This document shows, one piece after another, positions 2,915-23,541 of a DNA stretch of 32,408 nt; the stretch's first letter is position 1; each line of letters starts with the position of its first letter. The notes under the pieces are model-generated. The model had not been told where the DNA came from, made no database searches, and worked only from the letters and a program-made list of their open reading frames with translations. The DNA is taken from the NCBI GenBank assembly GCA_011046235.1, contig DSAX01000111.1, positions 1 to 32,408 of the forward strand, read 5' to 3'. This DNA is from Methanobacteriota archaeon (GTDB taxonomy: Archaea > Thermoplasmatota > Thermoplasmata > UBA10834 > DTMW01). The translations under genes were made by a program, and so were the position numbers.

Positions 2915-3892
2915 GTGCTCAAGATACCCACAGTACTCACCGCAGACGAGCTAATTGACAAGGCGTTCAGGAAGGCGAGTAAGGTAACGGTTACCGGCAA
3001 GAGCCGGATAGACCTCATCCGGAAGAAGAACATCGCCAAGATCTCCTCGGTTTCCGATTCCGTATCTTCTACCCTGAAGCGGTATGTCAAGAAGTTCCCG
3101 AGCATCGACAACCTACCACCGTTCTACCTCGAGATGGTCGATCTCCTTATAGGTTCGGACCAGCTGAAGAAGTCGCTCGGAGCGGCCGACTGGTGCGCCG
3201 ATCAGGTGAAGAGGCTGTCGCACTCCGCGAGCTCGAAGATCAGGAGCAGCAAAAGCACCTTGGCCATCGATGAGGTCCGGAGCAAATACTACGGGCGCAC
3301 CTCCTCCCTGGTGAAGCAGATCGGGAAAGACCTCGTATTTCTCGGAGAGGCCAGGAACAAGATCAAGATGATGCCTACCATCGACCCGGCCATGAGGACG
3401 ATCGTGGTCGCGGGGGCGCCGAACGTCGGCAAGAGCCAATTGGTCGCGGCGATATCGACGGCGAAGCCGAAGGTCGCGTCATACCCGTTCACCACGAAGG
3501 AGATTTCCGTGGGAATACTGGAGCTGAACAGGGAGAGATATCAGATAATCGATACCCCGGGGCTGCTTGATCGTCCGATCGAAGATAGGAACGAGATAGA
3601 GCGCAGGGGCATATTGGCCCTAAGGCATCTCGCGAACCTCGTTATATTCCTGATCGATCCGACGGGCACATGCGGATATCCGGTCGATTATCAGGAATCG
3701 CTTCTGAAGAGCATTGGCGAGCAGTTTCCAGATGCTAGAATATTGGTAGTTGAGAATAAGGCAGATATGTTACAAATAAAAAGCAATCGTATCTCAGTTA
3801 GCGCGCTGAATAAGATTGGTCTGGACGAATTGAACAACGAGATTGCTAAACTGCTATTAGATTCCGTACAACATGAGATAGACGAAAAATAG
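2915..3892 (+). CDS. NOG1-family GTPase
   Basis: G1 'GAPNVGKSQL', G3 'DTPGLLDRP', G4 'NKAD'; N-terminal helical NOG1-type region. GTG start. Confidence 0.85.
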   Translation: MLKIPTVLTADELIDKAFRKASKVTVTGKSRIDLIRKKNIAKISSVSDSVSSTLKRYVKKFPSIDNLPPFYLEMVDLLIGSDQLKKSLGAADWCADQVKRLSHSASSKIRSSKSTLAIDEVRSKYYGRTSSLVKQIGKDLVFLGEARNKIKMMPTIDPAMRTIVVAGAPNVGKSQLVAAISTAKPKVASYPFTTKEISVGILELNRERYQIIDTPGLLDRPIEDRNEIERRGILALRHLANLVIFLIDPTGTCGYPVDYQESLLKSIGEQFPDARILVVENKADMLQIKSNRISVSALNKIGLDELNNEIAKLLLDSVQHEIDEK

Positions 3893-3956
3893 TTATTTGC
3901 CTCGTATGAAAAAGCTCATTTCGTTTTCAATATTTCATGTCGGGAAATACCTTGCT

Positions 3957-5138
3957 TTACTCCTTAATTCTTGAATTTTCTTGAATTCTAATCCCTCTTT
4001 CTTGGAGCTCCGAGGTGAACTTCTTGTACACTTTGACAACTCCTATTTCTGGAGGGATAACGCCTCTTTCCTTGATTTCTCCCCGCGCAACCATTCTAGC
4101 CACAATGGCAGCTGTGTAGCCGGTAGTGCGGGCCATCGAAGTCACTCCATGCGTCTCATCGAAGAAGTCCATCATAGAGAAGGAGAGCTCCACTTCTTTT
4201 CCGTCCTTTCTACCGGAGACATCTACCCTGAGCGCGGTCAAGTCTTTCTCTTCACCGAGCCTTAAAGTTTTTTCCAGTACAGAAACTGCTACCTCCCGTG
4301 GAATGACATTGGCACCGTGGATTTCCACGGGCTCGGTGTCGAAGAAACCTGTATCCCTCATTGCCAAGATTTTCTGTGCATGTCCCGGCCACCGGGCGGT
4401 TTTCTCCCCCATATTCTTGACTCTTCCTTTCATTGTGTGCAGCAAAGTAGAGAGCCCGTCTGTATAAAACGCCTCGAGCATACCTATTTCCGAGAATTCG
4501 ATCTGCTCCAATCCTGACATTGCGTCTACTTCGCTGATCTTCCCATCCCTCACGATCTTTACCTTTCCACAATACATGTTGATTAGTTCTTCGGTCGACC
4601 AAACGATCTTGTATCCGAGAGGAGGGATAGGTTTCTGGGGTATCCCGCCGCACACGATGCTAATGTTATCCACCTCGTCCATCAGATTTGCTCCCCGGCC
4701 AGCCAGGATGTTAGTAATGCCTGGAGCGACGCCACAGTCCACGAGAATCGTGATTCCAGCTTTCCTAGCCGGTGTATCTAATTCAAGCGGTCGGTCTCCA
4801 GACATAAGATCAACCAGATGTACTCCAGCTCCAACCGCAGCTTTGCTCACGAAGACGCTAAGATTTACCGGTAGGGCGCACACGGCAATGTCAACCCCCT
4901 TCATCAGTTTCCTCGTGGCTTGTTCGTCCTTGACATCGATCCGATGACCCGAGATTTTTTCACTCTTGAGCCGGGCGACAAGTCGCTCCGGCTTTTTCTT
5001 GTCGAAATCCGCGACAACTACATCAGAGACCCCATCTCTCTCAGCCATGTCCATTGCAATGACTGACCCCATCATCCCACAACCAAGAACCAGCACTTTC
5101 AACTTGTCAATCCTCCTTGCCCACTCGCTCTTCCACAC
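3957..5138 (-). CDS. saccharopine dehydrogenase-like oxidoreductase
   Basis: 393 aa; N-terminal Rossmann 'KVLVLGCGMMGSVIAMDMAE', 'DLMSGDRPLELDTPARKAGITILVDCGVAPGITNILAGRGANLMD' typical of the family. Confidence 0.8.
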   Translation of the reverse strand: MWKSEWARRIDKLKVLVLGCGMMGSVIAMDMAERDGVSDVVVADFDKKKPERLVARLKSEKISGHRIDVKDEQATRKLMKGVDIAVCALPVNLSVFVSKAAVGAGVHLVDLMSGDRPLELDTPARKAGITILVDCGVAPGITNILAGRGANLMDEVDNISIVCGGIPQKPIPPLGYKIVWSTEELINMYCGKVKIVRDGKISEVDAMSGLEQIEFSEIGMLEAFYTDGLSTLLHTMKGRVKNMGEKTARWPGHAQKILAMRDTGFFDTEPVEIHGANVIPREVAVSVLEKTLRLGEEKDLTALRVDVSGRKDGKEVELSFSMMDFFDETHGVTSMARTTGYTAAIVARMVARGEIKERGVIPPEIGVVKVYKKFTSELQERGIRIQENSRIKE

Positions 5139-19866: not shown

Positions 19867-20842
19867 AACGCTTCGTCGCAAACACCCGATGCGGTTACGG
19901 TGATTAGTGGCCGCGGACTGAATATCTCGGCGAACCTCGATACTTACATCCCGACTCTATCAACGCCGTCATTTTCGGCGACCGTAAGGTGCCTCTTTTT
20001 CGGGGAGGTTTCGAGCTTAGATGCGTTCAGCTCTTATCCTCCATCGCGTAGCTGCTCAGCAATGCCCTGTCGGACAACTGATCGACCAGCGGCGACGACC
20101 CCCCGTTCCTCTCGTACTAGAGGGACCTTCCCGTCAGGCACCAATGCACTTCCAGCGAAAAGCAACAAACCTGTCTCACGACGGTCTGAACCCAGTTCAC
20201 GATCCCTTTTAATGGGCGAACAACCCCACCCTTGGCAGCTGCTGCACCACCAGGATAGGGAGAACCGACAGCGAAGTAGCAAGCCTCCAGGTCGATATGA
20301 ACTCTTGCTGGAGACGACTCAGTTATCCCCGGGGTAACTTCTCTGTAATCACTGGCCCCCATTTGTGAGGCTCAGTGGTTCGCTAGGCCCTACTTTCGTA
20401 TCGTGGATCATTGTTGGGCTGATCCACGTCAAGCCAGCTTTTGCCCTTGCACTCTATGGTAGATTTCTGACCTACCTGAGCTGACCTTTGGGCGCCCTTG
20501 TTATCTTTTCGAGGGCGTGGCGCCCCACCCAAACTGCCCATCTATGGGTGTCCATCCTAGAATGTAAGTGATATGAGTTCGAAAGGGCAGTGTTTCAACG
20601 GTGACTCGGAACATACCTAGCGGCATGCCCTGGTAACGTCTCCTGCCTACGCTACACATTCAAGCTCATACCACAACCACAGACTGCAGTAAAGCTCCAC
20701 GGGGTCTTCGCTTTCAGCTGGAAGATAATGGACTGTGCGCCATTAAGTCGGTTTCACCGGCTTCAAGGCGGGGACAGTAGAGCTCTCGTTGGACCTTCAT
20801 GCAAGTCGCCAATTAAGCGACAAGGTATTACGTTACCTTAAG

Positions 20843-21567
20843 CAACTTCGAATCATTTCGAAGCCGGACTATATCTTCATCCATCTCCGGATGTCTGGCG
20901 TATAGTCTCTGAGGTTCCTGCGTCTTCGATTTCCTTTATAATCTCCTCGATCTTTCTTCTCCTCTGCTTTCCGTTCATGTTCATTGAATATGCTTTTTTC
21001 ACAAGGTAAATCAGTTTCTCACGATCCCTGTGTTCTCCGTTTTCCAATGCTTCAGTTATTTCAGCGAATTTCTGAAAATCATCCCATTTTGCTATGAGAC
21101 GATATCTCTGGAAGAAAGGAATCAATATCTCGGCGATCTGTCTTCTGTTGTCGACTATGAATTTCTTCAGTTCAGGCGATTCATGCTTCACGACCACCCT
21201 TCCGCATCTCAGTTCCCTCTTCAAAAGCTGAAGGATTACTTCGTTGTTCTCGTGTTGGGTGACATGAAATACTGGATCGAGGACCCAACCGAATCTCGCC
21301 GATTCCTGTTTCTTCAACGAAACGCAAAAGCAACTCTCTGCATCAATGATACCCAGAAGATAATATCTCAGGTACTTCTTCTTTGCAGGGATCCGTTCAA
21401 ATACAGTTAGGTCGGAATACTCTGACAATGTCATTGAATCACCTCATAGCGACGCAGTTACCTGCTGATTGTCATCACAGTTACGCATACTGTTCCTTAC
21501 TAAGGGATGCGTAACTCCGAGGTTCCAGCATATAGCCAGATTAGACACCCCCTGTTTAATTTTGCTA
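20843..21567 (-). other. group I self-splicing intron in 23S rRNA, apparent insertion site L1923
   Basis: Sense: 5' exon ...CUAUGACCCU^UAGCAAAA; IGS CAGGGGGU pairs ACCCU with terminal U.G; P 'UAUAUGCUGGAA', Q 'AAUCAGCAGGUAA' (P4 GCUG/CAGC), R 'CUCAGAGACUA', S 'AAGAUAUAGUCC' (P7 GACUA/UAGUC), P3 UCUGGC/GCCAGA, P8 CAUC/GAUG, P9 CUUCGAA/UUCGAAG, terminal G then ^CUUAAGGUAACG. Confidence 0.93.
20877..21434 (-). CDS. LAGLIDADG homing endonuclease (single motif), intron-encoded
   Basis: 185 aa; 'YYLLGIIDAESCFCVSLKKQ' LAGLIDADG motif; SD-like GAGGTGATTC just upstream of ATG; lies inside the intron. Confidence 0.9.
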   Translation of the reverse strand: MTLSEYSDLTVFERIPAKKKYLRYYLLGIIDAESCFCVSLKKQESARFGWVLDPVFHVTQHENNEVILQLLKRELRCGRVVVKHESPELKKFIVDNRRQIAEILIPFFQRYRLIAKWDDFQKFAEITEALENGEHRDREKLIYLVKKAYSMNMNGKQRRRKIEEIIKEIEDAGTSETIRQTSGDG

Positions 21568-23541
21568 AGGGTCATAGTTACCCCCGCCGTTTAGCGGTCC
21601 TTCTTCCCCTTGAAAAGGGCTTTCAGATACCGCCACTGGGCAGGCTTCAGCGGCAATACACATCCTTTCGGACTCGCTGCCACCTATGTTTTGGTTAAAC
21701 AGTCGGAGCTCCCTGGTCACTGCGACCAGCCATCTTCATGGCTGGCACCCCTTATCCCTAAGTTACGGGGCTAATTTGCCGAGTTCCCTCGCCTCGATTG
21801 CGCCGACACGCCTTGGACTTCTCATCCAGGGGCACCTGTGTTGGTTCTCGGTACGAACACCACAGCTGTAAGCAGAACCCTTTTCACTGGCACCTGGACT
21901 TATCCGAAGAGGGCCTTCGCCCTCCCACTCGCGCTTTCGTCCCCTTCTCACCATTACGGTTCTCCGAGGACTTCGACGCTTGGGCAGACAGACGAGTCTG
22001 CTCGGACTATCCGGATGCGTCAGGTAACTGCGCAGAGACTGCGATGGTGCAGGAATATTAACCTGCTTCCCTTTCGGCGTTTTCGATTAAGAAACGCCTT
22101 AGGATCGACTAACCCTCGACTGATGAACATTGTCGAGGAACCCTGGCCCCTTCGGCGGAGCGGATTCTCACCGCTCTTTGCTGCTACTCCCGCCAGGATC
22201 CTCATTCGTACGCGGTCCACTCGACGTCACCGCCGAGCTTCCGTCCGCGCACGACGCCCCCCTACCGGATTGCCTTTCGGCACCCCTAGGTATCGGTGGT
22301 TGGCTTAGCCCCGTCCATTTTCAGGGCCAGCAATCTCGACTGGTGAGCTGTTACGCTTTCTTTAAACGGTGGCTGCTTCTAAGCCCACATCCCAGTTGTT
22401 TTAGACTGCTGACTCCTTTTAGCCTTTCACACTTAGCCAACACTTAGGGACCTTAACCTAAGTTCGGGTTGTTCCCCTTTCGCGAGTGGAGCTTACCCCT
22501 CACGCGCTCACTCCCAGAGTCTACGGCGACAACAGATTCGGAGTTTGACAGGAGACCGAGGGATTTCTCCCCCTAAGTCTCCAATCGGTCGCTCTACCCC
22601 ATTGCCTACCTCGTCTGAGATCTACCTGCGAGTAGTTTCGGGGGGAACCAGCTATGTCCAGTTTAGATTGGCCTTTCACCCCTAAACGCAGCTCATCCGA
22701 GTGATTTGCACCTCAACACCGGTTCGGTCCTCCACCCAGGTTTCCCTGGGCTTCAACCTGGCCACGCTTAGATCAACTGGCTTCGGGTCTCTCACCGATG
22801 ACTACAGGCGAGTGCACCTAGTCCCTCATCCTTGCGGATTGCGGACTTTTCGGTTTCCCTTCGGCTTCGTGGTTGAACCACTTAACCTCGCCATCAGTTT
22901 GAACTCCCTGGCTCGTTTTTCGAAACGAATAACACGACACTGGTCCATCCTTTCGGACTTCGTTCCTTTCATGCCGTGTAAGATTATGACCGTCTGGTTT
23001 CAGGCTCTTTGCACCTCCCGTTAAGGGTACTTTTCAGCTTTCGCTCACGCTACTACTGCACTATCGGACTCGAGACGTATTTAGGGTTGGAAGCAAATGG
23101 CTCCCAGATTCACGCGCCATTTCCAAGGCACGCTACTCGAGAACATCCGGAATCTTCCTTCTGCCTTTCCTCTACAGGACTTTCACCCTCTCTGGTGCGC
23201 CGTTCCAGGCGACTTCGAGTCTGACAGTTAGGAAGTACCCAGAGTCTCCAACACCACATTTCCAGCTGATTTCTCAGTAGGATTCGGTTTGCCCTATGCC
23301 GCGTTCAGTCGCCCTTACTAACGGCATCTCGATTGATTTCTCTTCCTGGGGGTAATAAGATGCTTCAATTCCCCCCGTTCCCGATCCTTGCGGATCGCTC
23401 CGAAGAGCGGGAAGTCCCATTAGGTAATCGTCGGTTCATAGGCTCCTTGCGCCTACCCGACGCATATCGCAGCTTGGCACGACCTTCTTCAGCGCTCGAA
23501 CCCAGCCATCCACCAAACGGCGTAGCTAACCGCGGGCGTGT

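Follow-up and report, generated by a model that had tools for sequence, protein, structure and literature searches.

The 23S rRNA gene in the window, by which we mean the whole 32,408-nt stretch of DNA analyzed here (contig DSAX01000111.1), is interrupted by a 725-nt insertion. We are highly confident that this insertion is a mobile IB4-type group I intron at E. coli position 1923 of an archaeal 23S rRNA, equipped with a homing endonuclease gene (HEG). Its anatomy, its site and the covariation of its helices were established directly.

The split 23S rRNA gene and the exact junction

The first-pass annotation had read the host as an archaeal 23S rRNA gene and proposed a search with a 23S covariance model. 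This search was carried out and agreed with that reading, since the gene (23538..19886, minus strand) matches the Rfam archaeal LSU model RF02540 over its full length (model positions 1-2987, 2755.8 bits). The sole interruption is the 725-nt insert on the minus strand, with its first base at 21567 and its last base, a G, at 20843. Because the RF02540 match is continuous from end to end, another large insert would have no place in the 23S gene. The 16S rRNA gene lies on another contig, apart from the 23S gene; it is continuous over its model and contains no intron. From this separation of the two genes, the uncultured archaeon probably belongs to the Thermoplasmatota.

Joining the exons yields ACTATGACCCT/CTTAAGGTAACG, and intact relatives have AACTATGACCCTCTTAAGGTAGCG. 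Of 200 genomes of the class, 100 contain the uninterrupted sequence AACTATGACCCTCTTAAGGTNNCGTAATACC with no more than one mismatch; the order, represented by 20 other genomes, accounts for four of these. Since relatives carry the intact sequence, the exon-exon junction is fixed by comparison, and the boundaries given in the first-pass annotation (21567..20843) proved correct to the base. By alignment with E. coli 23S rRNA, the insertion follows U1923, the I-CeuI position; the bacterial form of the exon is seen in L003, a locus described below. The L1923 (I-CeuI-type) position assigned earlier was borne out.

Downstream of the junction the 3' exon differs from the relatives at one base, with GTAACG instead of GTAGCG. 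The exon (window positions 20830-20842, minus strand) reads CTTAAGGTAACG, and the relatives listed have CTTAAGGTAGCG or CTCAAGGTAGCG. The changed base corresponds to E. coli G1933 and lies in a nearly universal stretch that adjoins the homing site.

The following features were assigned, with the evidence given in brackets:

19886..23538, minus: archaeal 23S rRNA gene (host), split by the intron (RF02540)
20843..21567, minus: group I intron (IB4-like), 725 nt, LSU/1923 (RF00028 E 8.2e-6; empty site in relatives; covariation)
21568..21572, minus: P1, 5' exon strand ACCCU, whose last U forms the U.G pair (sequence; intron comparison)
21547..21551, minus: P1, internal guide strand GGGGU (becomes GGUCU where the exon is AGACU)
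21535..21540, minus: P3, 5' strand UCUGGC (intron comparison; covariation)
21526..21530, minus: P4, 5' strand UGCUG (intron comparison; invariant, silent on covariation)
21479..21516, minus: P5 hairpin, AGUUACGCAU ... AUGCGUAACU (sequence; fold)
21463..21467, minus: P4, 3' strand CAGCA (intron comparison; alignment)
21451..21462, minus: P6 (GGU) and P6a (CUGCGUC), 5' strands (fold; covariation)
21440..21445, minus: Shine-Dalgarno-like GAGGTG, a few bases 5' of the ATG (sequence; the 16S rRNA of the genome ends GGATCACCTCCTA)
20877..21434, minus: LAGLIDADG_1 homing endonuclease ORF, 185 aa, one motif, LLGIIDAES (Pfam PF00961; PDB relatives)
20913..20924, minus: P6a (GACGCAG) and P6 (ACC), 3' strands (fold; covariation)
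20903..20907, minus: P7, 5' strand GACUA, R (U-A to C-G in three homologues)
20894..20899, minus: P3, 3' strand GCCAGA (five of six pairs covary)
20878..20893, minus: P8 hairpin, CAUCC ... GGAUG (sequence; Rfam; intron comparison)
20867..20871, minus: P7, 3' strand UAGUC, S, within AAGAUAUAGUCC (Rfam; covariation)
20846..20863, minus: P9 hairpin, CUUCGAA ... UUCGAAG (sequence; fold)
20843, minus: terminal G, omega-G (sequence; empty-site comparison)

Group I core and its covariation

The insertion had been called a group I intron from its core helices, with an Intron_gpI search suggested as a check. Rfam Intron_gpI (RF00028) detects it significantly, with 30.6 bits (E 8.2e-6 in the window, E 7.8e-6 in the whole genome), though below the curated gathering score of 50, because the 185-aa ORF in the P6 loop splits the model. 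The Rfam alignment is correct for the 3' half, comprising R, P3, P8, S and P9, but misplaces the 5' half, which it puts inside the ORF. The intron possesses a conserved core with P3-P8 and P4-P6 domains, a P3/P7 pseudoknot, a P1 with U.G at the splice site and a terminal guanosine. All helices named in the first-pass annotation (P1, P3, P4, P5, P7, P8 and P9) were recovered together with the terminal G, and P6/P6a, which was missing there, brackets the ORF. The 242-nt core without the ORF folds at z = -4.0, and its unconstrained centroid shows P3, P4, P5, P6, P6a and P9. From the site and the precedent of archaeal L1923 introns (PMC6125680), rather than from a subgroup model, we infer subgroup IB4.

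To this intron we added ten homologous L1923 introns (L018-L027) from MAGs or other genomes of the phylum to which the Micrarchaeota MAG JACQBR010000018.1 belongs. The 11 introns were aligned with MAFFT and 23 core pairs were counted, of which 96.4% of the cells are paired; when the partner strand was slid, only 28-46% were paired. Both sides have changed at ten of the 23 pairs, giving 24 double-change cells as opposed to a mean of 6.9 after shuffling, and none of 500 shuffles reached the observed number. P3 covaries at five of its six pairs, its strands being separated by the ORF, and in the P7 pseudoknot U-A is replaced by C-G in three sequences. P4 is invariant across the 11 introns and therefore gives no covariation signal. 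For P6/P6a, one or more pairs are broken in each of three homologues in this alignment. The exon takes part as well: three homologues have AGACU instead of ACCCU as 5' exon strand, and their guide strand changes to match (GGUCU), the P1 pairing count being biased toward pairing since the guide strand was located by its pairing. A U.G at the splice site was present in all introns compared (17/17). The covariation with the ten homologues lies far beyond chance and is decisive; it settles the structure. Together with the RF00028 match, the covariation of P3, P6/P6a and P7 (0/500 shuffles) upholds the assignment to the group I introns.

The endonuclease, the predicted mode of action and other explanations

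The claim that the intron encodes a LAGLIDADG endonuclease was likewise confirmed, as the ORF matches PF00961 (LAGLIDADG_1) with E 1.1e-16 and 62 bits against a cut-off of 23.1. The protein thus has both the family profile and a motif with an acidic residue, and the motif residues D31 and E33 are invariant in seven homologues. Among its solved relatives are many double-motif enzymes, the archaeal rRNA intron endonuclease 3e54 and I-CeuI (2ex5). The ten homologous L1923 HEGs contain no internal stops. The ORF starts in the P6 loop, and its 3' end crosses P6, the 5' strand of P7 (R), the 3' strand of P3 and P8, where the stop codon lies. In most homologues the reading frame through the core is the same (SSETIRQT or similar), with L003, L023 and L027 as exceptions, and the C-terminal tail encoded by the core is therefore unlikely to be needed by the protein.

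From what is known of the two families, we infer that the intron splices and homes and that its protein cuts DNA as a homodimer. The core would fold within the pre-rRNA, and P7 would bind an exogenous guanosine, which would attack the bond that follows the U of the U.G pair in P1. The exon U released by this step would then attack after the terminal G, so that the exons are joined and the H69-H71 region is restored. The single-motif LAGLIDADG_1 protein encoded in the P6 loop is predicted to act as a homodimer and to cleave, around position 1923, a 23S allele that lacks the intron; the intron would be copied into the cut allele.

The BHB introns, which are excised by the tRNA splicing endonuclease, commonly carry LAGLIDADG genes in archaeal rRNA (PMC6125680), so that the insertion might belong to this class, its group I likeness being accidental. 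The BHB geometry, two 3-nt bulges around a 4-bp helix, is however absent at the exon-intron junctions: at the junction fixed by comparison, the central helix of AGCA with UUAA pairs at only one of four positions. A BHB intron would also leave the covariation of the core and the pairing of exon and guide without a reason. We consider this explanation to have practically no chance of being correct, in line with the earlier reading of the insertion as a group I instead of a BHB intron.

An assembly or binning artefact, in which a foreign 23S gene or intron was joined to an archaeal contig, has to be weighed since the draft genome consists of 154 contigs and is 89% complete. Against it, the 23S gene is archaeal over its full length and shares its 32-kb contig with archaeal neighbors (PolD DP2, RpoD with Fe-S motifs and NOG1). 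The guide sequence of the intron fits its own exon, and an L1931 intron is present in the equivalent 23S gene of a genome of the same order. Such an artefact is thus very improbable. Less far-fetched, though still unlikely, is that the group I intron does not splice alone, being either retained in a split 23S rRNA or dependent on a protein of the host or of the intron. Self-splicing is a prediction, and several LAGLIDADG proteins are maturases. A loss of splicing is at odds with the intact state of all core helices and of the terminal G, and an insert retained in H69-H71, which lie at the subunit interface, would probably be harmful.

Known introns, relatives and possible transfer

Archaeal group I introns at LSU/1923 were already described in 2018, and with this precedent the group I intron analyzed here falls into a known class, of which it is a well-supported further example. 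That work listed 39 group I introns from archaea, every one of them in rRNA; 27 are IB4, about nine are at LSU/1923 and 21 carry LAGLIDADG genes (Nawrocki, Jones and Eddy, 2018; PMC6125680). With these numbers and the ten of 302 genomes found here, the rarity of such introns had been overstated in the first-pass annotation. The published IB4 introns at LSU/1923 (among them IB4.9,.11,.13,.17,.18,.20 and.28) share domain, gene and position with ours, several of them are of similar length (~690-760 nt; 725 nt here), and LAGLIDADG cargo is common among the 39. Their 1923 hosts are Micrarchaeota, Thaumarchaeota, Aigarchaeota, Pacearchaeota, Aenigmarchaeota and one unclassified archaeon, whereas our host probably falls within the Thermoplasmatota. 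The introns L018-L027 have the same site, helices and P6-loop ORF, but differ in their P1 and P3 sequences in a compensating way. What is added is this probable new host lineage, whose 23S and 16S genes are separate, and an HEG clade that our searches otherwise found mainly in Micrarchaeota; the existing picture of archaeal introns is unchanged.

The Chlamydomonas eugametos chloroplast LSU intron, which encodes I-CeuI, has the same insertion point, after U1923. I-CeuI (2ex5) is recognizable by profile from our HEG (E 5.6e-26), but it is far from the closest solved relative and many other LAGLIDADG enzymes score better. I-ShaI, encoded in a 23S group I-like intron of CPR bacteria, is also a single-domain LAGLIDADG_1 enzyme, in a bacterial instead of an archaeal host (PMC11270868). 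Cutting of its target and homodimer formation were shown, and this tested homodimer supports the mode of action proposed for our HEG. The 23S sites rich in LAGLIDADG_1 in that study are 1917, 1931, 1952, 2593, 2604 and 2657; 1923 is absent.

Among 302 genomes from the phylum to which the Micrarchaeota MAG belongs, 14 contained HEG homologues, ten of them in introns at L1923 (10/302 genomes, HEG identity 44-55%) and three at L1931. No other L1923-type HEG was found in 392 genomes of the window's own phylum, and the viral contigs searched contained no HEG relative. In the HEG tree, our protein and the L1923 proteins of the Micrarchaeota phylum lie on one side of a 100/100 branch, apart from the archaeal L1931 HEGs, and our HEG forms a separate branch within the L1923 group. 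The HEG of L003 (Mycoplasmataceae MAG JAITNN010000019.1) is also on the L1923 side, with a long branch, although its intron is at L1931. Within these searches, the clade is otherwise confined to the phylum of the Micrarchaeota MAG and this Mycoplasmataceae MAG.

The patchy spread together with the resemblance across phyla suggests horizontal movement between phyla. An ARMAN archaeon has been grown in co-culture with Cuniculiplasma, which belongs to the Thermoplasmatales (PMC5498576); a direct passage of the intron between a Micrarchaeota symbiont and a Thermoplasmatota-like host is conceivable, but we give it only a small chance. It has become possible to test a narrow question, namely whether introns of this kind pass between DPANN symbionts and the hosts they live with.

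Several further introns were seen in the course of the searches. The L1931 intron of L003 (~3800-4560) resembles other L1931 introns in its 3' part and has an HEG that groups with the L1923 clade, which hints that HEGs have been exchanged between introns whose insertion sites are 8 nt from each other. Under table 11 the L003 HEG frame opens just before the motif, and upstream is an in-frame TGA, which is W in Mycoplasma. An ORF-less group I intron at 23S L1931 is present in the same order as the window (L006, G004:C20, 1491-1770), and an L1931 group I intron with a LAGLIDADG ORF occurs in the 23S gene of another family of the phylum (L012, G110:C32, 1340-2040). Introns L005, L009, L010, L011, L007 and L008 were set aside because the genes around them resemble genes of bacterial phages. 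The first four are group I introns on one 109-kb contig (G306:C1, 12394-25882), three of which apparently split one terminase-like gene related to Bacillus and Clostridioides phages; this contig is probably a misbinned bacterial phage. L007 (G234:C16) and L008 (G222:C5) are also group I introns, and their contigs had been binned as archaeal. The genes beside them are a major-capsid-like gene, accompanied by an HNH/NUMOD-like ORF, and a tape-measure-like gene; the best relatives of the capsid protein are from bacterial phages.
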